Assembly: GCA_011192155.1 (NCBI GenBank)
Contig: DUEK01000128.1
Coordinates: 1 to 60,671 of the forward strand
From: Thermoflexia bacterium
GTDB lineage: Bacteria; Chloroflexota; Anaerolineae; B4-G1
DNA length: 60,671 bases
Direction of reading: 5' to 3'
Shown here piece by piece: positions 2,576-20,248 of this stretch. The notes beneath the pieces were generated by a model that saw only the letters and a program-made list of their open reading frames with translations, was not told the DNA's origin and did not search any database. Position 1 is the stretch's first letter; each line of letters starts with the position of its first letter. The position numbers were made by a program, and so were the translations under genes.

Positions 2576-3766
2576 ATGAAGGTAGAGACAATCATTGATA
2601 ACACAATAAAACCCCAACTCATCGAAGCCTTTGGCCGGCAAGTTGCCAACTCACTGCTTACGCGAGCCACGCTCTCCTACGTCAGCACCGATGGAAGCGA
2701 GAAAGAGAGATATGAAACCCTTTTGTACTCGATTTGTTCCGACAAGCGCGTGATCGGTGTGTGGGGCAAGCAGGACGCCGCAAAGCAAATGACAGAATGG
2801 AAAACCCTACTAGAGACCGACTCTAGTATCACTTCGCTGCCCTTACAAGAAGGCAGTGATGATCTAATCAAAGGAGAAGAAACAATGTCAGCGAAAATTC
2901 TCGACGGTCGAGCTATGGCCAAAGAGGTGCGGGAAGAGGTCGTCGCCGGAGTGAACGATTTCAAGGCCAAACACGGCTTCACACCAACTATCGCCGTAGT
3001 GCGGGCGGGAGATGATCCAGCCTCGGTGAGCTATGCTAAAATGATCAAGAAATCCTTCGAGAAAGCGGGGATGAACTTTGCCCTGCACACCCTGCCGGAT
3101 ACGGCAAGCCAGGACGAAGTGGCGGGCCTGGTAGCCGAGCTTAACGCCGATAGCAACGTCCACGGCATTATGGTCCAGGAACCATTACCCAAAGGCATAG
3201 ATGATGCCGCTATCAAGGCTGTCATCTTACCAGAGAAGGACGCCGATGGAGTGAGCCCCATCAACGCAGGACGGCTAGCCCAGGCGTCCCCCGTCGGCAG
3301 GGCCGAGGGGGTAAAGGATTACATTGTGCCGGCTACTCCTCTCGGCGGGCTAGAGATGCTGAAACGGAGCGGGGTGGAGATGGATGGCAAGCGCGCGGTT
3401 GTCGTCGGCCGCTCCAACATCGTCGGCCGCCCAATGGCCTTCTTGCTCATGCAGCACCACGCCACGGTGAGCATGTGCCACTCGCACACCCGCCCCCTGG
3501 GCGACGCAACCCGCCAAGCTGACATTCTCTGCGTCGCTGTCGGGGTGGCCGAGTTGATCAAGGGGGATATGATCAAGCCAGGAGCAACCGTCATAGACTT
3601 TGGCTTCAACCGCTCTGAGGGCGAATGGGTGGGTGACGTGGACTTTGAGGAAGCCAAGAAAGTGGCCGGCATGATCACCCCCGTGCCTGGCGGGACGGGG
3701 TCAATGACCAACGTCATACTTATGAGAAACGTCCTTGAGGCGGCAAAGAAACAGATGAAGAGATAG
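2576..3766 (+). CDS. folD: Bifunctional-type methylene-THF dehydrogenase/cyclohydrolase with N-terminal extension
   Basis: The FolD part (about residues 104-396, 293 residues) carries the signatures GDDPASVSY, HGIMVQEPLP, KDADGVSPIN, GRSNIVGRP and PVPGGTGSMT. It would interconvert methylene-THF and formyl-THF using NAD(P). Two things are odd. The ORF opens with about 103 residues of unrecognised sequence; an internal ATG at 2885 with a good AGGAG-type site upstream gives a normal-length FolD, so the extension may be a fused domain or a separately initiated product. Also, the position that should hold the catalytic Lys (Y-x3-K in typical FolD) reads Y-A-K-M-I, so cyclohydrolase activity may be altered. 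A second, canonical FolD is at 19361. Confidence 0.9.
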   Translation: MKVETIIDNTIKPQLIEAFGRQVANSLLTRATLSYVSTDGSEKERYETLLYSICSDKRVIGVWGKQDAAKQMTEWKTLLETDSSITSLPLQEGSDDLIKGEETMSAKILDGRAMAKEVREEVVAGVNDFKAKHGFTPTIAVVRAGDDPASVSYAKMIKKSFEKAGMNFALHTLPDTASQDEVAGLVAELNADSNVHGIMVQEPLPKGIDDAAIKAVILPEKDADGVSPINAGRLAQASPVGRAEGVKDYIVPATPLGGLEMLKRSGVEMDGKRAVVVGRSNIVGRPMAFLLMQHHATVSMCHSHTRPLGDATRQADILCVAVGVAELIKGDMIKPGATVIDFGFNRSEGEWVGDVDFEEAKKVAGMITPVPGGTGSMTNVILMRNVLEAAKKQMKR

Positions 3767-7339: not shown

Positions 7340-9355
7340 ATGGCAAAAAAGAAAGCAAGAACACCGGAAGAGTCCAGTTGGGATCGAGCATCAGTCGCCC
7401 TTTTGGAGCGAGCTTGCGCTATCGAGATGGAAACCGCTTTCGAGCGGGCCGACTCGATCACGCCGTGCCCCATTGGAGCCGACGGTCTGTGCTGCAAGAA
7501 CTGTTCGATGGGTCCCTGCCGCCTGGTCGGCAAGACAGATCGCGGTGTCTGCGGCGCGACGATCGCTACAGTGGCGGCCCGCAACTTTGCCCGCGCTGTA
7601 ACGGTGGGCGCGGCGTCCCACTCTGACCACGGCCGGGATATGGCCTACACTCTCCTGGAGGCGGCCGAGGGACACGCGCCCGACTATGGCGTGCGCGACC
7701 CTTACAAGCTGATGGAGGTGGCAGACTTTTTGGACGTTCCGACAAAGGACGAAGAAGGAGAAAGACGACCCATCAACGATATCGCCCGGGACGTGGCCCT
7801 GGCGGCGCTGGGCGAATTTGGCAAGGTGCGGGGCGAGTTCTATTATCGCAAGCGCGCCCCGGCCAAGCGGCAAGAGATATGGGAGAGCCTGGGAATCACT
7901 CCCAGAAACATAGACCGGGAGATCGTGGACCTGCTCCATCGCACCCACATCGGCAACGACCAGGATGCCGAGCACATACTGGATCAAACGCTGCGCTGCG
8001 CTTTGGGCGACGGCTGGGGCGGCTCGATGCTGGGCACCGACATCTCTGACATCCTCTTTGGCACCCCGGCCCCGGTACGCTCCCAGGCGAATCTGGGCGT
8101 GCTCAGCGAGGACAAAGTCAACATCATCATCCACGGCCACGAGCCGACGCTTTCCGAGATGATCGTGGCGGCGGCGATGGATCCAGAAATGATCGAATAC
8201 GCCAAGAGCAAAGGCGCCAAGGGCATCCAGATGTCCGGCATCTGCTGCACGGCCAACGAGACGGTCATGCGGCAGGGCGTACCTCTGGCCGGCAACTTTT
8301 TGCAGCAAGAACTGGCGATCCTCACCGGCGCGGTCGAGGCGATGGTGGTGGACGTCCAGTGCATCATGCAGGGTATAGTACCCCTGGCGGACAAGTTCCA
8401 CACCGAAGTGATCACCACCTCGCGCAAGGTCAAGATCACCGGCGCCACCCACATTGAGTTCGACGAGAGCAAAGCGTTAGAGATCGCCAAACAGATCGTC
8501 CGCCGGGCGATTGACCTCTTCCCCAAGCGGGGCGAGACGCATATCCCCGAGGATCACAACCCGCTGGTGCCCGGTTTCTCACACGAGTACATTGACTACG
8601 CGCTGGGCGGCCTCTATCGCGGTAGCTTGCGCCCGCTCAATGACGCCATCATGGCTGGCCGTATCCGGGGCGTGGTCGCTAACATCGGTTGTAACAACGC
8701 CCGCGTGCGCCACGACGAGCTTTTCCACCACGTCGTCACTGAGTTTCTCAAGAACGACATCCTGGTGGTAGAGACCGGCTGTGGAGCCATCGCCAGCGCC
8801 AAACAGGGATTTATGACGCCCGAAGCGGCGTTAGAGGTTGCCGGGCCGGGCCTGCGCGAGGTCTGTGAGACGGTCGGTATGCCGCCGGTGCTTCACATGG
8901 GCTCCTGCGTGGACAACTCGCGCATCCTCACCGTCCTGGCCCAGATGGCGACCGAGGGCGGCCTGGGCGAGGATATCTGCGATATCCCGGCCGTCGGTAT
9001 GGCGCCGGAGTGGATGAGCGAAAAGGCGCTCTCCATTGCCACCTACTGCGTGGCCTCCGGGGCTTATGTCATCCTGGGTGGCAGCGACGGTCCCGTCTCT
9101 GGGAGCGAAGAGGTGCTGCGCTTGATGACCGAGGGCTGGGAGGAAAAAGTCGGCGGCCGGCTAGAGTTCGTCGAAGAAGCCGAAGAGATCGTCCGCCGCT
9201 CGATAGAGCACATTGATAAGAAACGCGCCGCGTTGGGCCTGCCGGAATACGACGCCAGCAAGTGGGGTCGCAGCGGCGACCGGCGTATGCCAGACCTGCT
9301 CGAAATTCCGTTTGAAGAGCGGATCGAAGCAGTCTACGGGCTGGCAGGAAAGTAG
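7340..9355 (+). CDS. cooS: Anaerobic carbon monoxide dehydrogenase catalytic subunit
   Basis: Ni-Fe-S CO dehydrogenase (CooS/AcsA) of 671 residues, which interconverts CO2 and CO with ferredoxin-level electrons. The N-terminal B/D-cluster cysteines are in CPIGADGLCCKNCSMGPC (about residues 43-60). The C-cluster region includes IIIHGHEP, SGICCTANE, NIGCNNARV, TGCGAIASAK and HMGSCVDN. The length is normal. It sits 13 bases upstream of the acetyl-CoA synthase gene, as expected for a bifunctional CODH/ACS. The start at 7340 has an AGGAGG site 8 bases upstream. Confidence 0.97.
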   Translation: MAKKKARTPEESSWDRASVALLERACAIEMETAFERADSITPCPIGADGLCCKNCSMGPCRLVGKTDRGVCGATIATVAARNFARAVTVGAASHSDHGRDMAYTLLEAAEGHAPDYGVRDPYKLMEVADFLDVPTKDEEGERRPINDIARDVALAALGEFGKVRGEFYYRKRAPAKRQEIWESLGITPRNIDREIVDLLHRTHIGNDQDAEHILDQTLRCALGDGWGGSMLGTDISDILFGTPAPVRSQANLGVLSEDKVNIIIHGHEPTLSEMIVAAAMDPEMIEYAKSKGAKGIQMSGICCTANETVMRQGVPLAGNFLQQELAILTGAVEAMVVDVQCIMQGIVPLADKFHTEVITTSRKVKITGATHIEFDESKALEIAKQIVRRAIDLFPKRGETHIPEDHNPLVPGFSHEYIDYALGGLYRGSLRPLNDAIMAGRIRGVVANIGCNNARVRHDELFHHVVTEFLKNDILVVETGCGAIASAKQGFMTPEAALEVAGPGLREVCETVGMPPVLHMGSCVDNSRILTVLAQMATEGGLGEDICDIPAVGMAPEWMSEKALSIATYCVASGAYVILGGSDGPVSGSEEVLRLMTEGWEEKVGGRLEFVEEAEEIVRRSIEHIDKKRAALGLPEYDASKWGRSGDRRMPDLLEIPFEERIEAVYGLAGK

Positions 9356-9368
9356 GAGGTAAGAGAAT

Positions 9369-12300
9369 ATGTCGAAATACATAGCAACACGCGCGATTCG
9401 CGGCGCTAATGCCATCGTAGCTGAGGCGGACGCGCTGCTCAAAAAGGCCATCGCCGAAAAGGGGGCTGAAACCCCCGTGGTTTTCCCCAACACGGCTTAC
9501 TTTCTGCCGACCACTTATGGCATGCTGAATCACAAGGTCGAAACGCTGGGAGACCTAGAGTTCTCCCTGGATTACGCCAAAAAGCTCCTGCACCCGCTGC
9601 CGGACGACAACCTGTGGGTCCCATACCTGGGCGAGACGCTCGACAGTGGGCAGGCAACCCTCCTGGCGGCGGAGGCCATCGAGGGCATCCGCTTCGCCTA
9701 CGGCGAGCAGCCAGGGGCTTATCCGGGACTAGAGTTGACCGGCAGTACCGAGTACCCGGACTTTACGGGCGACGGTCACTTGAACGGCCCCATTGACGAC
9801 ATCCAGTTGCGCTCGTGGGGCATCCAGTTGGTGGACGGTCGTATGCCGGGCTTTGCGGCCATCGTCGGCGCAGCTCGTTCCAATGAAGCCGCCGTCTCTA
9901 TCGTGCGCGAGCTTCAGAAACGCAACATTCTTATCTTCCTCTGCGGCAACTCGAATGGTCGTTCTATGATTGACCAGTTGCAAGAGGAAGGGGTAGAGAT
10001 GGGATACGATACCTATATCGTCCCGTTTGGCAGGGATACGATCTCTGCCATCTACCCGGTGGGCTTTGCTACCCGTTCCGCGCTGACCTTTGGCGGCTTA
10101 AAGCCCGGTCAGTGGCGGGATATTCTGCTCTATAACAAGTTCCGCGTTTTCGCTTTCGTGTTGGCGCTGGGCGAGGTGGATGATCTAAAATACGCCGCCG
10201 CCGCCGGAGCCATCTCCTACGGTTTCCCCACCATCGCCGATACCGTCATCCCCGAAATCTTGCCCACCGGCGTCACCCAGTACGAGCACGTCATCTCGAT
10301 GCCGTGGAACGAGATCGAGGCCGAGAACGACACAGAACGGGCGGCCAAACTGGTGCAGCGGGCCATTGAGGTGCGCGGTGTCAAGATCAAGATCACCGAG
10401 GTACCAGTTCCTGTTGCTTACGGCTCCGCCTTTGAGGGCGAGGTCGTGCGGCGGGCCGACATGCGGATCGAGTTTGGCGGCAAAAAGAGCCGCGCTTACG
10501 AGTACCTGCGCATGGTGGACATGGACGAGGTGGAGGATCACAAAATCGAGGTCATCGGCCCTGGATTCGAGGATCAAGAGGTCGGCGCTTCGATAGACCT
10601 GGGCATCCTGATCGAGGTGGCCGGGCGCAAGATGCAGGAAGACTTTGAGCCGGTGCTGGAGCGGCAGGTACACTACTTTATCAACGGCGCATCCGGCATC
10701 CAACACATCGGCCAGCGCGATATCGCCTGGATCCGCATCAGCAAGGGCGCGGTCGAGAAGGGCTTTAACCTCAAGCACTTTGGCGAAATCCTCTACGCTC
10801 GCTTCCACGCCGACTTTGGCGCCATCGTGGACAAGGTGCAGGTCAAGATATTCACTGACCCCGACCTGCACGCCGAGTGGCTGGAAAAGGCGCGCGAGGC
10901 TTACGAGTTCCGCAACCAACGCTTGGCCGATCTGACCGACGAGGCAGTGGACACGTTCTACGATTGCACGCTGTGTCAGTCGTTCGCGCCCACCCACGTC
11001 TGCATCGTCAGCCCGCAGCGATTGGGGCTGTGCGGGGCCTACAACTGGCTCGACTGCAAGGCCTCCAACCAGATCAACCCCACCGGCCCCAACCAGCCGG
11101 TGGTCAAGGGCAAGCTGCTCGACCCGGTCAAGGGGTACTGGACTGGCACCAACGAGAACGCGGTCAAGAACTCGCAAGGTACCGTTGACAAGGTGGCGCT
11201 TTACTCCATCATGGAGAATCCAATGACGGCCTGCGGCTGCTTCGAGTGCATCGTCATGTATCTCCCCGAGGTGGAGGGTGTAATGGTCGTCAGCCGGGAA
11301 GATCCGAGCATGACGCCGGCGGGGATGACTTTCTCCACGCTGGCCGGCATGTGCGGCGGCGGCATCCAGACCCCCGGCGTGATGGGCATCGGCAAGTTCT
11401 ACATGACCAGCCCAAAGTTCCTCTCGGCCGACGGCGGCTTTAAGCGCGTCGTGTGGATGTCCAGCTTCCTCAAAGACTCTATGGCGGCCGAGTTTGCAGC
11501 CGTAGCGGAACGCGAGGGCATCCCCAATCTGATTGACTTGATCGCCGACGAGCGCAAGGTCACGACGGTGGACGAGTTGGTCGATTGGGTCGAAGAAGTC
11601 AAGCACCCGGTTCTAGAGATGGGCGTGATGCAAGCGGAATCGGGAGAAGTTGAGGCTGAGGTCGAGGTCGAGGTTGAGGTGGAGGCTGAAGTGGAGGTGG
11701 AGGCTGAAGTGGAGGTGGAGGTTGCGCCGAAAGCAGTTGCGGTTGCTCCTGAACCTATCGCAGCAGAGGCCGCGCCCGTACTAGTGCCGCAAGCGCTGGC
11801 GAGTGCGGTCGGACCGGCGGATGTTCAGCAACTCGCCGAAACCGCAGCCGAAATCGTCATTGACCGTTTCCGTGGCGCACTGGTGGCGGCGTTGCAGCAG
11901 TTGGGCGGAGTCGCGCCCGCTGCGCCGGGCGTCCCCGTGGCTCCAGTTCCGATGGTTGAGCCTGTTGCGCCAGAGGTGGCTGCTCCCCCTGTAAAAAAAA
12001 TAGCTAGGGCGGCAGTGCCGCCCTGGAGCGAGGAGAAGGAAAGTCTCGATTTCCTCAAGGAAAAGTGGCCGGGCAGCATCCGCGAGATCACGCTGGGCGC
12101 GACCGCGGCAGAAGGCGGCACGCGAACCAAGACTGTGACCATCGGCGGCCAGACCTCAATGCCCTTCCTCGACGTCGAGGGTGAGTTGGGGTGCAAGCCG
12201 GCAATCGCCATCGAGATACAGGATCGCAAGCCGGACGACTGGTCGCCTCTGCTGATGCAAGCCTGGGGCGAGGCAATGAACGATCCGGGCGAGTGGGCCA

Positions 12301-12998
12301 AGGCGGCCGAGAAAGCTGGCGCGGACCTGATTCTGCTCCAACTCAGTCTGACCGACGCCGACGGCAATCCCAATACGCCGGAGAAGGCCGTCGCCGCTGT
12401 GCGCAAGGTGCTCGCGGCCACCGGCCTGCCGCTGATCGTGCTTGGCCCCGGCCAGGTGGATCCAGATAACGAATTGCTCGTGCCCGTCGCGGAGGCGGCG
12501 GTCGGCGAGCGGATCGTGCTGGGCGTGTGCGAGGAAAAGAACTATCGCACCATCGTCGCAGCGGCGCTGGCGCACGGCCAACTGGTCATCGCCCGCACCG
12601 CGATGGATGTCAACCTGGCGAAGCAGCTCAACATCCTGATCAGCGATATGGGCTTGCCTCTCGACCGGATACTGATGGACCCGACCTGCGCCGGCGTGGG
12701 ATACGGTATGGAGTACGGCTACTCGGTGATGGAGCGGCTGCGTCTGGCAGCCCTGCAGGGCGACGGCATGACCCAATTGCCGATGATCGTCACCGTGGGG
12801 TACGAGGCCTGGCGACAGAAAGAGAGCAAGGTCGGCGAGGGCGTACCAGAGGCTTGGGGTGATTGGGAGGAACGAGCCATCAACTGGGAGACGGTGACCG
12901 CGGCCACCCTGGTCGAATCGGCGGGCGACATTGTCGCGCTACGCCATCCTGAATCGGTGCGGCGGATTCGCGCGATGATTGAGGAGTTGGAAGGCTAA
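9369..12998 (+). CDS. acsB-acsD: Fused acetyl-CoA synthase (AcsB) and corrinoid protein small subunit (AcsD)
   Basis: One ORF of 1209 residues. Residues 1 to about 750 are bacterial-type acetyl-CoA synthase, including the N-terminal CODH-contacting region and the A-cluster. The A-cluster cysteines are in YDCTLCQSF through GLCGAYNWLDC (about 531-560) and CGCFEC (about 620). A low-complexity Val/Glu linker (about 757-790) and a Pro/Ala-rich stretch follow. From about residue 884 the sequence is the small CFeSP subunit (AcsD/CdhD), with LKEKWPGSIREITLG, TVTIGGQTSMPF and DPTCAGVGYGMEYGYS. I see no stop or frameshift between the parts, and acsC follows directly. The protein would combine the methyl-corrinoid carrier's small subunit with the enzyme it feeds. 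Confidence 0.95.
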   Translation: MSKYIATRAIRGANAIVAEADALLKKAIAEKGAETPVVFPNTAYFLPTTYGMLNHKVETLGDLEFSLDYAKKLLHPLPDDNLWVPYLGETLDSGQATLLAAEAIEGIRFAYGEQPGAYPGLELTGSTEYPDFTGDGHLNGPIDDIQLRSWGIQLVDGRMPGFAAIVGAARSNEAAVSIVRELQKRNILIFLCGNSNGRSMIDQLQEEGVEMGYDTYIVPFGRDTISAIYPVGFATRSALTFGGLKPGQWRDILLYNKFRVFAFVLALGEVDDLKYAAAAGAISYGFPTIADTVIPEILPTGVTQYEHVISMPWNEIEAENDTERAAKLVQRAIEVRGVKIKITEVPVPVAYGSAFEGEVVRRADMRIEFGGKKSRAYEYLRMVDMDEVEDHKIEVIGPGFEDQEVGASIDLGILIEVAGRKMQEDFEPVLERQVHYFINGASGIQHIGQRDIAWIRISKGAVEKGFNLKHFGEILYARFHADFGAIVDKVQVKIFTDPDLHAEWLEKAREAYEFRNQRLADLTDEAVDTFYDCTLCQSFAPTHVCIVSPQRLGLCGAYNWLDCKASNQINPTGPNQPVVKGKLLDPVKGYWTGTNENAVKNSQGTVDKVALYSIMENPMTACGCFECIVMYLPEVEGVMVVSREDPSMTPAGMTFSTLAGMCGGGIQTPGVMGIGKFYMTSPKFLSADGGFKRVVWMSSFLKDSMAAEFAAVAEREGIPNLIDLIADERKVTTVDELVDWVEEVKHPVLEMGVMQAESGEVEAEVEVEVEVEAEVEVEAEVEVEVAPKAVAVAPEPIAAEAAPVLVPQALASAVGPADVQQLAETAAEIVIDRFRGALVAALQQLGGVAPAAPGVPVAPVPMVEPVAPEVAAPPVKKIARAAVPPWSEEKESLDFLKEKWPGSIREITLGATAAEGGTRTKTVTIGGQTSMPFLDVEGELGCKPAIAIEIQDRKPDDWSPLLMQAWGEAMNDPGEWAKAAEKAGADLILLQLSLTDADGNPNTPEKAVAAVRKVLAATGLPLIVLGPGQVDPDNELLVPVAEAAVGERIVLGVCEEKNYRTIVAAALAHGQLVIARTAMDVNLAKQLNILISDMGLPLDRILMDPTCAGVGYGMEYGYSVMERLRLAALQGDGMTQLPMIVTVGYEAWRQKESKVGEGVPEAWGDWEERAINWETVTAATLVESAGDIVALRHPESVRRIRAMIEELEG
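11650..11727 (+). repeat. In-frame tandem repeat encoding the Val/Glu linker
   Basis: GAG-rich tandem units, including two and a half copies of an 18-base GTGGAGGCTGAAGTGGAG-like unit, encode an alternating Val-Glu/Ala-Glu linker between the AcsB and AcsD parts. Such repeats can change copy number, so linker length may vary between strains. Confidence 0.8.
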
Positions 12999-13062: not shown

Positions 13063-14409
13063 ATGGCACTTTCAGGTATTCAAATCTACAAAATGTTGCC
13101 TCAGACCAACTGCAAGGAATGTGGCTTTCCAACCTGCCTGGCCTTTGCGATGAAATTGGCGGCCAAGCAGGTTGATCTGGACCTATGTCCCGATGTCTCG
13201 GACGAGTCACGGGAAAAACTGGCAGAGTCGTCCGCGCCGCCGGTGCGGCTGGTGACTCTCTCCGCCAACGGGAGAGAGGTGAAATCAGGAAACGAGATCG
13301 TGCTCTTTCGTCACGAAAAGACCTTTTTCAACCCATGCGGGCTTTTCATCCGCTTGCGCGACGATCAGCCGCTGGACGAGATCAAGGCAAAGGCGAAAGA
13401 AGCGGCAGAGTATATGGTCGAATACGTCGGCATGGAGTTGACGATTGACGGCTTTGCTATCGAGGCAACCGGGGACGGCGCCGCCTTCGCAGCAGCCATT
13501 GAAGGCGTGCTAGAGACGGCCAAGCTCCCCCTGATCCTCATCGCTGGCGACCCGGCCGTGATGGCGCAGGGGTTAGAAGCCGCCGAGGGGACACGGCCAC
13601 TGATCTATGGCGCTACAACGGAGAACTGGGAAGCCTTTGCGGAACTCGCCAAAAAGTACAACGCGCCAATGGCGATCCGCGCCGATACAATGAACGGCTT
13701 GGCCGAGTTGACGGACAAGATCAAGGGCGCGGGTGTGGAAGAGATCGTGCTTGACCCCGTCGTGCGCGATCTCAAGTCCTCGCTGACGATGAACACGCTG
13801 ATCCGTCGCATGGCGCTCAAAAAGACCTTCCGGGCGTTGGGTTTCCCCATCATCAGCTTTCCCGGCGAATGCGCGGACGACGAGGGTATGGTCACAATCG
13901 CGGCGACGCAGGCCATCGCTAAATACGGCGGCTTTGTCGTGCTGGATCGGTTCAGCCCAGCTACGATCTATCCCCTGTTGGCCCTGCGCACCAATATCTA
14001 CACCAACCCGCAGGAGCCGATCCAGGTGCAACCAGGGGTCTACGAGATCAACGATCCCAAGGAAGACTCCCCCGTGATGGTGACGACCAACTTCTCCATC
14101 ACCTACTTCTCCGTGGCGAACGAGATTGACGGCAGCGGCAATCCCGGCTGGCTGCTGGTGGCGGACGCGGAGGGCATGAGTGTGCTCACCGCCTGGGCCG
14201 CCGGCAAGTTCGACGCCGAGCGCATTGCCAAGGCGGTCAAATCCGCCGCTATGGAGAGCAAGGTCAGCCATCGCAAACTGATCCTCCCCGGTCACGTGTC
14301 GGTGCTGCTGGGCGAGTTGGAGGAAGAACTGCCGGATTGGGAAATCCTAGTCGGGCCGCGCGAAGCGGTAGACCTGCCCGGCTACTTGAAGATATGGAGC
14401 GCGTCTTAA
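13063..14409 (+). CDS. acsC: Corrinoid/iron-sulfur protein large subunit
   Basis: The gamma subunit of CFeSP, 448 residues, which carries the methyl group on its cobamide from AcsE to acetyl-CoA synthase. The N-terminal [4Fe-4S] module shows the expected spacing in NCKECGFPTC followed by LDLCP (about residues 17-46). A TIM-barrel and a C-terminal cobamide-binding region follow (for example FPGECADDEG and GNPGWLLVADAEGMSVL). Its partner small subunit is fused to AcsB just upstream. A good AAGGAG site precedes the ATG. Confidence 0.96.
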   Translation: MALSGIQIYKMLPQTNCKECGFPTCLAFAMKLAAKQVDLDLCPDVSDESREKLAESSAPPVRLVTLSANGREVKSGNEIVLFRHEKTFFNPCGLFIRLRDDQPLDEIKAKAKEAAEYMVEYVGMELTIDGFAIEATGDGAAFAAAIEGVLETAKLPLILIAGDPAVMAQGLEAAEGTRPLIYGATTENWEAFAELAKKYNAPMAIRADTMNGLAELTDKIKGAGVEEIVLDPVVRDLKSSLTMNTLIRRMALKKTFRALGFPIISFPGECADDEGMVTIAATQAIAKYGGFVVLDRFSPATIYPLLALRTNIYTNPQEPIQVQPGVYEINDPKEDSPVMVTTNFSITYFSVANEIDGSGNPGWLLVADAEGMSVLTAWAAGKFDAERIAKAVKSAAMESKVSHRKLILPGHVSVLLGELEEELPDWEILVGPREAVDLPGYLKIWSAS

Positions 14410-14580: not shown

Positions 14581-16551
14581 GTGACAGTCCGCTTCAAACC
14601 TGCCGATAAACAGGTGGAGGTAGCCGCAGGCACTCTCCTGAGCGATGCCGCCCGGCAAGCGGGGATAGAGATACTGATGCCCTGCGGTGGACAGGGACGA
14701 TGTGGCCGTTGCGCCGTCATCGTCGAAGAGGGCACAGTTCGCCGCCGCTCCACCCAGCGCATCTCTCCCAAAGACGTAGAAGCTGGCTACGCGCTGGCCT
14801 GCCAGACAATCGTCGAAGAGGATGTCGCCGTCAGCATCCCTCCGCAGGAGAAGATCGAGCGACGGCTGAAGGAAAGCAAACGGGCGGCAAAGGTCGAGTT
14901 GCCGTTCCCCTACGACCTGCACGACCAACCGCTGCGCAAGTACGCCATCACCTTGAAGCCACCCTCCTTGCAGGATCAAACTGACGACTGGTCCCGCCTG
15001 CGGCGCGAGTTGGCCCGCCTCTACGATCTGCAAGACCTACAGGCCTCCTTGCCGGTACTCCGCAAGTTGGGGCCGGCGCTGCGGGAGGGGGAATGGACGG
15101 TCACATTAGTAGTTAATCTAGACCCTGCGGGTTTCAGAAAGCCAGAAGGAACCGCTTCGCTTCCCTCTACAGTGGAAGGGTCTCCAAAGGGAACACCTGT
15201 CCTGCTAGACATCCTCCCTGGGGAACACCTGGAGAATCTGTGGGCCGCAGCGATTGACATCGGCACAACCAGTAACCACGTCTGGCTGGTGGACCTGATC
15301 AGCGGCAAGGTCATGTCCCAGAAAGCCGACTACAATGGTCAAATCGCCCGGGGCGAGGACGTCATCTCGCGCATCATTTACGCTTCCAAAGGGAACGGTC
15401 TGCAGGATTTGCAGGGGTTGGTGATGGAGACGCTCAATCGGCTGTTGGAACGGGCCGCGCGGGAGCGAGGTATCAGCACCGATCAAATCTACAAAGCGGT
15501 GGTAGCCGGCAACAGCACGATGATCCATCTCTTTGCCGGCATTCCCCCAAAACCTATCCGCCTGATGCCCTTTATCACCGTCATCAACCAGCTACCTCCC
15601 TTCCCGGCCCGCGAGATCGGCCTGGGAATCAACCCCGATGGAACAGTGGATTGCCTGCCCGGCATCGCCTCCTACGTGGGATCTGACATCACGGCCGGCG
15701 TGGTCAGTTCCCAAATGTGCGGCATGGATGATCTGTCGCTATTCATAGACATCGGAACCAACGGGGAGATCGTACTGGGAGATTGCACCTGGCTCATCTC
15801 CTGCGCCTGTTCAGCAGGGCCGGCCTTTGAGGGAGCGGGTGTGGTGCACGGGATGCGGGCCACTGCCGGGGCCATCGAGGAGGTGTGGATCAACGGTGGC
15901 CATGGTGGCCGCTTGGAAGATTACGATGTCACCTATCGCGTCATCGGTGAGGAGAAACCCCGGGGATTATGCGGTTCAGGCCTGATTTCCCTCATGGCGG
16001 AGATGTTCGCCGCCGGCGTGATGGACAAGAGCGGCAATATCCATCTCGACCTGCCTACCGAGCGGGTACGGAAAGGCGAGCACGGGGCGGAATACGTAGT
16101 GGCCTGGGCAGACGAATCGGCTACCGGAGAGGACATTGTCATCACCAAAGTGGACATTGACAACCTGATGCGGGCCAAGGCAGCCATCTATGCCGGCTTT
16201 TCTATCCTGGCCCGCAGTGTAGGGCTGAGCCTGGACGACGTAGGGCAGGTGCTCATTGGCGGAGCTTTCGGCCAGTACATCAACGTGAGTAACGCTGTCC
16301 GCATCGGCCTGCTGCCCGACAAGCCCTTTGATAGCTTTAGCTTTCTAGGCAACACCTCTATCCGAGGGGCGTACATGGCGCTCATCTCGCAGGATGCGCG
16401 CCGGCGGGTGACAGAGGTGGGGCAGATGATGACCTATCTGGAGCTTTCGGCCGATAATACTTTCTTTGACGAGTTCAACGCGGCCATGTTCCTGCCGCAT
16501 ACGGACATGAGCCAGTTCCCGTCGGTGGCGGCGCTGTTGGAGGGGGGATGA
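14581..16551 (+). CDS. Ferredoxin/ASKHA-domain reductive activator of the corrinoid protein (RACo-like)
   Basis: A protein of 656 residues. The N-terminal [2Fe-2S] ferredoxin domain shows CGGQGRCGRC and a later ALACQT cysteine. The C-terminal half is an ASKHA-type ATPase (DUF4445 type) with DIGTTSNHVW, VVAGNSTMIHLF, FIDIGTNGEIVLG and IGGAFGQYINV. This architecture matches RACo, which uses ATP to re-reduce inactive Co(II) CFeSP. The start is GTG at 14581; the AGGAG site is somewhat far upstream. It ends with an ATGA overlap onto the radical SAM gene. Confidence 0.92.
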   Translation: MTVRFKPADKQVEVAAGTLLSDAARQAGIEILMPCGGQGRCGRCAVIVEEGTVRRRSTQRISPKDVEAGYALACQTIVEEDVAVSIPPQEKIERRLKESKRAAKVELPFPYDLHDQPLRKYAITLKPPSLQDQTDDWSRLRRELARLYDLQDLQASLPVLRKLGPALREGEWTVTLVVNLDPAGFRKPEGTASLPSTVEGSPKGTPVLLDILPGEHLENLWAAAIDIGTTSNHVWLVDLISGKVMSQKADYNGQIARGEDVISRIIYASKGNGLQDLQGLVMETLNRLLERAARERGISTDQIYKAVVAGNSTMIHLFAGIPPKPIRLMPFITVINQLPPFPAREIGLGINPDGTVDCLPGIASYVGSDITAGVVSSQMCGMDDLSLFIDIGTNGEIVLGDCTWLISCACSAGPAFEGAGVVHGMRATAGAIEEVWINGGHGGRLEDYDVTYRVIGEEKPRGLCGSGLISLMAEMFAAGVMDKSGNIHLDLPTERVRKGEHGAEYVVAWADESATGEDIVITKVDIDNLMRAKAAIYAGFSILARSVGLSLDDVGQVLIGGAFGQYINVSNAVRIGLLPDKPFDSFSFLGNTSIRGAYMALISQDARRRVTEVGQMMTYLELSADNTFFDEFNAAMFLPHTDMSQFPSVAALLEGG

Positions 16552-18400: not shown

Positions 18401-19324
18401 ATGTACATAATTGGTGAGAACATTCACATCATTGCGCCCAGGGTCAAGAAGGCCATCGCCGAGCGAGACGCCAAATTCTTCCAAGACATGGCGGTGCGCA
18501 TGGTGGACGCCGGGGCGAGCGCAGTTGACCTCAACATCGGCCCGCAGAAAAAACACGGTCACGAGATTCTGCCCTGGCTGGTCGAGACCGTCGAGAAAGT
18601 GGTGGACGTGCCACTGGTATTCGACACCACCAACCTGGGAGCCATCGAGGCGGCCTGCGAGACGGTGAGCAAGGCTCAACCCATCATCAACTCCACCGAC
18701 GCGCGGGCCGAGCGCCTGGCGAGCGTGCCGGCGGTGGCGAAAAAGTTCAACACGCGCCTGGTCGCGCTGACGATGGCCGAGGGCATGATCCCCGTCGGCG
18801 CGGACGAGCGGGTGAGCATTGCACTGGAGACCCTGATCCCACACATGTTGGAGATTGATTTCCCCATCAACGACCTGATCATTGACCCGTTGGTATTGAC
18901 CGTCTCGGGCTGCCAGGAATACTGCCCAGAGTGCATCGAGGCGGTGCGCACGATAAAGTTCGCCTGGGATCCGCCCCCATTGACCAACGGCGGCCTCTCC
19001 AACGTCTCCAATGCCGTTCCTAACGAGATGCGCCCGTTGCTCAACCAGACGTACATGGTGATGCTGATGGGCGCCGGCTTGGATATGGTCATCGCTGACC
19101 CGCTGGACAAGGAACTGATGGAGTGGATCCGCGTGGTCGAGGAGCGGGACGAAAGCAGTGCGCTCAACAAGCTGCTGCTCAAACTGCACGACCGGGTGGA
19201 GGCGATGGAAGAATTGCAGCCCGACGACGTGGACATGTCTGACCCGCAGCAGGCCGACATCTGGAAGACGGTACAAGTGCTGCTGAACAAGGTGATCTAC
19301 ACAGATTCGTACCTGCGCGTGTAG
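18401..19324 (+). CDS. acsE: Methyltetrahydrofolate:corrinoid protein methyltransferase
   Basis: MeTr of 307 residues with a pterin-binding TIM-barrel fold, which moves the methyl group from methyl-THF to the Co(I) corrinoid of CFeSP. Family blocks include IGENIHIIAP, VDLNIGPQ, PLVFDTTN, INSTDARAERL, LTMAEGMIPVG and NGGLSNVSNAVP. The length is slightly above the typical 260-270. It joins the folate branch to the CODH/ACS branch and is followed by folD. Confidence 0.96.
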   Translation: MYIIGENIHIIAPRVKKAIAERDAKFFQDMAVRMVDAGASAVDLNIGPQKKHGHEILPWLVETVEKVVDVPLVFDTTNLGAIEAACETVSKAQPIINSTDARAERLASVPAVAKKFNTRLVALTMAEGMIPVGADERVSIALETLIPHMLEIDFPINDLIIDPLVLTVSGCQEYCPECIEAVRTIKFAWDPPPLTNGGLSNVSNAVPNEMRPLLNQTYMVMLMGAGLDMVIADPLDKELMEWIRVVEERDESSALNKLLLKLHDRVEAMEELQPDDVDMSDPQQADIWKTVQVLLNKVIYTDSYLRV

Positions 19325-19360
19325 TAGCGCGATGTGCGAATAACGCATTACGGAGGATAT

Positions 19361-20248
19361 ATGCCTGCGCAACTACTTGACGGAAGAGCGACGTCGGCCG
19401 CGATCCACGATGAGGTCAAGGCCGGGGTAGAGAAACTCAAGACTGAACACGGCATCGTGCCGGGGCTGGCCACGGTACTCGTGGGAGAGGACCCCGGCTC
19501 CAAAAGTTACGTCGGGATGAAGCAAAAGCAGTGCGAAAAGGCGGGGATGCATCCTTTCGCACGTCACCTGCCGGAGGACATCAGCCAGGAAGAACTCGAA
19601 AAGGTACTAGGGGAGCTGAACGCCGACCCAGATGTGCACGGTATCCTGGTACAACTGCCGCTCCCCGACCACCTGGACGAAGAAAGCGCCTTAGCGGCCA
19701 TCGCGCTCGAAAAGGACGTGGATGGTTTCCATCCGGTCAATATAGAGCGCTTGACCCTGCAAGGGATGGAACCGACGTTCGCACCGTGTATGCCCTTGGG
19801 CTGCGTCGAGTTGCTCGACCGCTACAATGTCGAGATCAAAGGGAAAGAGGCCGTGGTGCTAGGCCCCAGCAACATCGTCGGCCTGCCGGCGGCGATGCTG
19901 TTGCTTCACCGGGGTGCGACGCTCACCATCTGCCATCCCCACACGGAGAATCTGGCAGAGATCAGCAGACGGGCCGATATCCTCGTCGCCGCCATAGACC
20001 AACCCAGGATGGTGAAGGCTGAATGGGTCAAGCCGGGGGCGGCGGTAATCGACGTCGGCTGGAGCCGCGTGAAGGACGAGACGGCGAAGAAAGGATTTCG
20101 TGTCGTGGGTAACGTGGACTTTGACGCGGTCAAAGAAGTGGCCGGGTATCTCACACCGGTACCGGGCGGCACCGGGCCAATGACCATCGTGTTACTTTTG
20201 CAAAACACGCTTCTCTCGGCCAGGCGAGTGGCCGGTCTGATTGACTGA
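19361..20248 (+). CDS. folD: Methylene-THF dehydrogenase/methenyl-THF cyclohydrolase (canonical copy)
   Basis: FolD of 295 residues. The catalytic motif is intact here: SYVGMKQK has Tyr followed four residues later by Lys, as in characterised enzymes. Other blocks are HGILVQLPLP, EKDVDGFHPVN, GPSNIVGLP and PVPGGTGPMT. I start at ATG 19361 because CGGAGG lies just upstream. This copy is expected to do both dehydrogenase and cyclohydrolase steps, unlike the divergent copy at 2576-3766. It closes the core C1 gene run. Confidence 0.96.
   Translation: MPAQLLDGRATSAAIHDEVKAGVEKLKTEHGIVPGLATVLVGEDPGSKSYVGMKQKQCEKAGMHPFARHLPEDISQEELEKVLGELNADPDVHGILVQLPLPDHLDEESALAAIALEKDVDGFHPVNIERLTLQGMEPTFAPCMPLGCVELLDRYNVEIKGKEAVVLGPSNIVGLPAAMLLLHRGATLTICHPHTENLAEISRRADILVAAIDQPRMVKAEWVKPGAAVIDVGWSRVKDETAKKGFRVVGNVDFDAVKEVAGYLTPVPGGTGPMTIVLLLQNTLLSARRVAGLID

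Follow-up and report, generated by a model that had tools for sequence, protein, structure and literature searches.

The acetyl-CoA synthase AcsB, which forms acetyl-CoA out of a methyl group and CO, and AcsD, a subunit of the corrinoid protein that supplies this methyl group, are separate proteins in other bacteria. AcsD itself has neither corrinoid nor an Fe-S cluster; the corrinoid that carries the methyl group sits on its partner AcsC. The archaeal counterpart is the ACDS complex (CdhA-E, 2.2 MDa). The corrinoid protein of the known bacterial system is unattached and has to locate ACS; its archaeal counterpart belongs to a single complex (PMC11474084). The AcsCD:AcsB ratio of C. autoethanogenum varies from 1.7 to 2.9 with the feed gas (PMC9040625). 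In 2024 the methyl-transfer step between ACS and the corrinoid Fe-S protein (CFeSP) was still without a structure of both together (PMC11474084); since then a complex with C. autoethanogenum CODH-ACS has been described, as a later paper cites (PMC12289521). In the extended ACS-CoFeSP state, an AlphaFold3 model that agrees with an EM map, ACS touches the corrinoid domain of the alpha subunit (AcsC) with its A3 domain and the beta subunit (AcsD) with A1 (PMC12289521). The C-terminal extension of MetACS is flexible, and a role for it in the swinging of ACS between CODH and CFeSP has been proposed; archaeal ACS also has a flexible C-terminal extension, of ~75 aa in M. thermophila (PMC11474084). 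No AcsB-AcsD fusion was found described in the open-access literature searched.

Here we describe such a fusion in Thermoflexia bacterium, on a stretch of 60,671 nucleotides (contig DUEK01000128.1), hereafter the window. The fusion is a variant of a known enzyme system and is real and recurrent.

The fused gene and its surroundings

A single open frame of 1209 aa runs from an ATG to its stop codon, which is included in the coordinates of Table 1, without an internal stop. An AGGAGG ribosome-binding site lies just 5' of the ATG and is overlapped by the stop of the upstream CODH gene. The first-pass annotation, made from the DNA letters, had read AcsB and AcsD in this one uninterrupted frame; the ORF and the Pfam, NCBIfam and PDB comparisons all agree. 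Pfam places CODH_A_N at aa 23-109, CdhC at 347-499, ACS_CODH_B_C at 512-753 and CdhD at 907-1192. By its sequence the first half is a complete bacterial-type AcsB with all six A-cluster ligands. It scores 961.5 bits against a cut-off of 800 for the AcsB equivalog NF040764 (NCBIfam, aa 10-752), and its six cysteines are spaced identically to C506/509/518/528/595/597, the A-cluster ligands of M. thermoacetica. The second half reads as a whole AcsD subunit, with 366.5 bits (cut-off 280) for the delta subfamily NF003376 over aa 895-1207 (NCBIfam) and a pLDDT mostly >85 in the full-length AF2 run. The narrow WLP_AcsD model NF040759 scores 263 against a cut-off of 430, but it is a narrow exception model, not defining for the AcsD family as a whole, and both the full-length delta model and PDB 4djd do match.

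Table 1. Coordinates of the fusion gene, its parts and neighbouring pathway genes in the window.
Feature	Position	Strand	Evidence or remark
acsA/cooS-type CODH, directly upstream of fusion	7340-9355	+	TIGR01702 above cut-off
acsB-acsD fusion gene	9369-12998	+	ORF, Pfam, NCBIfam
AcsB moiety, aa 1-752: A1 (CODH-binding), A2, A3 (A-cluster) domains	9369-11624	+	Pfam/NCBIfam; PDB ACS entries match aa 10-752
A-cluster ligand region, Cys 533, 536, 545, 555, 622, 624	10965-11240	+	spacing +0/3/12/22/89/91
Linker, aa 753-892, 140 aa	11625-12044	+	between domain matches; AF2 pLDDT about 25-50 outside helix
Val/Glu part of linker, imperfect 6/18-bp DNA tandem repeat	11658-11724	+	repeat analysis of DNA
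Conserved linker helix ADVQQLAETAAEIVIDRFRGALVAALQQLGGV, aa 817-848 (modelled helix aa 819-844)	11817-11912	+	conservation in both fused groups; AF2
AcsD moiety, aa 893-1209, corrinoid Fe-S protein small subunit	12045-12995	+	Pfam, NCBIfam; PDB 4djd 1.8e-91; AF2 pLDDT
acsC, corrinoid Fe-S protein large subunit	13063-14409	+	NF003195 549.6 bits; Fe-S domain PF04060
acsV/RACo-type corrinoid activator	14581-16551	+	RACo domains (Pfam)
Pterin-binding methyltransferase, probable AcsE	18401-19324	+	PF00809

The fusion gene is placed between acsA and acsC in a complete Wood-Ljungdahl cluster and is followed by acsC, acsV, a radical SAM gene, a CooC-like ATPase gene and a probable acsE. From acsC as the next gene, AcsC is predicted to be the partner of the AcsD half. 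A separate acsD elsewhere in the genome, with this copy unexpressed, had been named at first pass as an observation that would refute the reading; none was found in the 3.4 Mb assembly, which is about 83% complete, and the other strong CdhD-family match is AcsC. The same assembly encodes an orphan AcsB-like protein, ~36% identical (contig C46, L115:8650-10560, minus strand), which starts late in the A1 region and has CGD for CGC in the A-cluster. No CODH, AcsC or AcsD was seen among the neighbours scanned, and the orphan gene could be a paralog with another function or lie on a contaminant contig. In the window, a FolD (2576-3766) has an extra N-terminal segment of ~103 aa without a Pfam match to the segment, the equivalent of which is also fused to FolD in the relative L051; a second folD lies at 19334-20248.

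The linker span holds 4 and 9 stops in the other two forward frames and 0 in the fusion frame. A lost stop or a frameshift between two normal genes, caused by assembly or sequencing, would likewise appear as a single frame; the genome assembly is fragmented (178 contigs, 5% contamination), and a short tandem repeat lies at the linker start. Such an artefact is, however, exceedingly improbable. Dozens of independent assemblies have the in-frame join, with linkers that are homologous but diverged, and the fusion junction contains neither the tail of separate AcsB, ..L(T/S)M(P/D)P(I/L/M)(F/M), nor the start of separate AcsD, M-x-(V)EIPxEKW. Since relatives assembled independently carry an equivalent fused frame, chance or misassembly is excluded.

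The linker and its conserved helix

Separate AcsB ends in a short conserved C-terminal tail, and separate AcsD begins straight with its domain. In their place, fused proteins have 140-290 aa, mostly Ala, Pro, Val and Glu. The Val/Glu repeat and the following Pro/Ala-rich stretch noted at first pass were confirmed in composition, but that description overlooked a fusion-specific conserved helix, so that the linker is more than a spacer. As judged from conservation and modelling, the linker is made of disordered stretches flanking a helix that fused proteins conserve and separate AcsD lacks; about 65 disordered aa precede the helix of 26-32 aa and about 35-45 further disordered aa follow it. Because the Val/Glu part is a 6/18-bp DNA repeat, slippage could alter its length without breaking the frame.

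The helix ends in ..ALxAALxELGG in fused proteins, and a conserved PW...KEKW entry to AcsD follows. Within the window's group its mean identity is 59% as compared to about 40% in the flanks, and its length is constant whereas that of the flanks varies. Its pN/pS is about 0.38. The fused proteins fall into two main groups, and a helix-only profile match between them scores 35, while the highest score among 60 column shuffles was 15.6. The helix model matches only fused proteins or contig-cut AcsD fragments, with the remaining weak matches at chance level; in a few fused proteins (L079, L097, L017) its score is low. The full-length AF2 run gave a disordered linker with a lone helix (helix pLDDT about 45-55) and a domain orientation that is not fixed (pTM 0.39), and the run of linker plus AcsD again modelled the helix, at a pLDDT of about 75; both were single-chain models. 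The amphipathicity of the helix is weak in the window's own copy, being matched by 17% of shuffles. We regard the helix as probably a docking or self-association element.

The N-terminal extension of archaeal CdhD was considered as the source of the linker and rejected. The whole fusion protein aligned with NF003375 from aa 768; the linker alone gave no NF003375 match and only a chance-level one to an unrelated kinase model, the archaeal extension being judged here through the NF003375 model. No small linker-like gene was found between separate acsB and acsD; the gaps that were inspected contain either CBS-domain genes or nothing clear-cut.

The fusion might also be a precursor from which linker cleavage or an internal translation start yields separate AcsB and AcsD, leaving no functional tether. 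Long Pro/Ala/Val/Glu linkers are presumably prone to proteases, and the window has a GTG at 12015 with a weak AGGG 5 bases upstream. This GTG is not kept in relatives, which have GTC, GTA, GTT, GGT, GCC or ATT and only in L054 GTG, and none of them has a Shine-Dalgarno sequence at the site, whereas true starts carry AGGAGG or AAGGAG. The internal start at 12015 was rejected for this lack of conservation. A linker that is merely discarded would also leave its conserved helix unexplained, and we consider a precursor unlikely.

Distribution and descent of the fusion

A search for the equivalent architecture, which the first-pass annotation had proposed to map on taxonomy, shows that it recurs among uncultured bacteria in several families of the class Anaerolineae and is not peculiar to this genome. 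Among the 79 related loci, many encode AcsB and AcsD as a single frame and many as two genes. AcsD is carried by 150 of the 396 genomes in the class sample, and at least 16 of these 150, across seven families, have a fused frame (counted as a frame >1150 aa). Within the window's own family, a fusion-type linker is present in seven of eight acsD-bearing genomes (five intact, two cut by contig ends); the eighth has separate genes. Outside the class, no fused frame was found among 400 genomes sampled across the phylum. An apparent fused frame of 1074 aa in the Dehalococcoidia-like genome G422 proved to be two genes, acsD-TGA-acsB. The fused acsB-acsD contig L017 is labelled Thermoguttaceae (Planctomycetota) and groups inside the window's Anaerolineae clade, which points to mis-binning or horizontal transfer. 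Apart from keeping acsB and acsD separate, some close relatives have equivalent clusters, so the pathway does not depend on the fusion. Several separate-gene relatives (L027, L030, L036, L039, L043, L045, L048) encode 1-3 small CBS-domain-like proteins between acsB and acsD, recognised by the motif VRDxMHRGVxTC alone.

Inteins were observed inside acsB of Anaerolineae relatives, namely L097 (5263-12402), L081 (220-5556), L054, L077, L079, L080, L082 and L084. They occupy two sites, in both cases directly in front of an A-cluster ligand cysteine (C536 and C622 of the fusion protein in the window), and the copies scanned have Pfam Intein_splicing and LAGLIDADG matches. L097 combines both inteins and the AcsB-AcsD fusion in a single frame of 2380 aa, and the intein of L084 is short (about 219 aa) with no endonuclease match. 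No paper on inteins in acetyl-CoA synthase was found in the open-access literature.

A single clade of all fused proteins is strongly rejected for AcsB aa 1-690 (p-AU 4e-7), for which the window's group and separate-gene relatives form a supported clade (96). AcsD alone does not discriminate (p 0.286). At the junction (AcsB 691-752 plus AcsD 1-60) the tree uniting all fused rows is 22 log units better, though the alternative is not rejected (p = 0.144), and identity in AcsB 701-750 and AcsD 1-40 is higher between the two fused groups than between fused proteins and separate-gene kin. The AcsB result would fit two independent fusions, with the common helix and the N-terminal PW..KEKW motif as products of convergence. 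This reading is possible but doubtful, given the junction tree and identities and a helix-only similarity well above shuffled controls. The fused groups do not form a single clade in their AcsB bodies but have junctions that look homologous, so the junction may instead have moved by recombination. Both courses are possible, and the helix match between the groups makes us lean to a shared junction. A fusion ancestral to both groups, split again in the separate-gene lineages between them, would account for the separate-gene clades that both the AcsB and the AcsD tree place within fused ones. We hold it to be very unlikely: repeated splits would rebuild neither the short C-terminal tail that all separate AcsB share with distant never-fused relatives nor the CBS-domain genes between acsB and acsD of several separate-gene relatives, and a linker remnant was looked for in separate acsB and acsD and none found.

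We tentatively suggest that the acsB end, the helix linker and the acsD start form a module spread by recombination among Anaerolineae, whose helix docks on another pathway protein or self-associates. If this were true, CODH, ACS and the corrinoid protein would be a single fixed-ratio machine, reached independently of archaeal ACDS.

Proposed function and comparison with known systems

It is likely that the gene yields a working AcsB-AcsD fusion with the linker as a flexible tether keeping AcsC/AcsD beside ACS. From the gene and its neighbours we infer an uncleaved protein, a tethering effect, a 1:1 ratio and a role for the helix. The first-pass annotation had taken AcsD for the methyl carrier; this did not hold, the corrinoid carrier being AcsC, encoded next. 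With the corrinoid on AcsC, not AcsD, the tether would act through the AcsC/AcsD heterodimer. The AcsB half would bind CODH via its A1 domain and perform the A-cluster chemistry, and the AcsD half would pair with free AcsC, bearer of the corrinoid. A flexible chain from the A3 end to the AcsD start would hold AcsC/AcsD within reach and leave the corrinoid domain free to visit methyltransferase and activator; the dimer could swing among these and the A-cluster without leaving the complex. The tether would raise the local methyl-donor concentration and fix ACS:AcsD at 1:1. Tethering and a fixed stoichiometry had been proposed at first pass and would be a logical consequence of the single chain.

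Swinging-arm Pro/Ala linkers are known from the E2 component of 2-oxo-acid dehydrogenases. Like the linker described here, they are mobile Ala/Pro-rich chains around a small conserved element, but E2 is an unrelated protein, and in the fusion system the cofactor is on the partner subunit AcsC and not on the tethered domain. The MetACS C-terminal extension occupies the same place in the chain as the linker. The CODH/ACS systems of Moorella, Carboxydothermus and C. autoethanogenum, with a stand-alone corrinoid Fe-S protein, share with the fusion the A1-A2-A3 AcsB, the A-cluster ligands, the AcsD/AcsC families and the operon content; their AcsB and AcsD are separate, whereas the fusion system has one chain, nominally 1:1. 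The fusion offers a natural test of whether the AcsCD:AcsB ratio, which in C. autoethanogenum changes with the growth gas (PMC9040625), must be adjustable. A natural fusion holding ACS beside the corrinoid protein could also help trap the methyl-transfer state, and its linker is a natural design for synthetic CO2-fixing pathways. Archaeal ACDS keeps ACS and the corrinoid protein stably together, as the fusion is predicted to do. The partners in ACDS associate non-covalently, and their ACS is without A1; in the fusion the link is covalent, A1 is kept (CODH_A_N, Pfam) and the CODH is of bacterial type, the ACDS-type CODH alpha subunit model TIGR00314 giving 95 bits against 781. Most likely the fusion is the way in which these bacteria reach the kind of integration that archaea have in ACDS.
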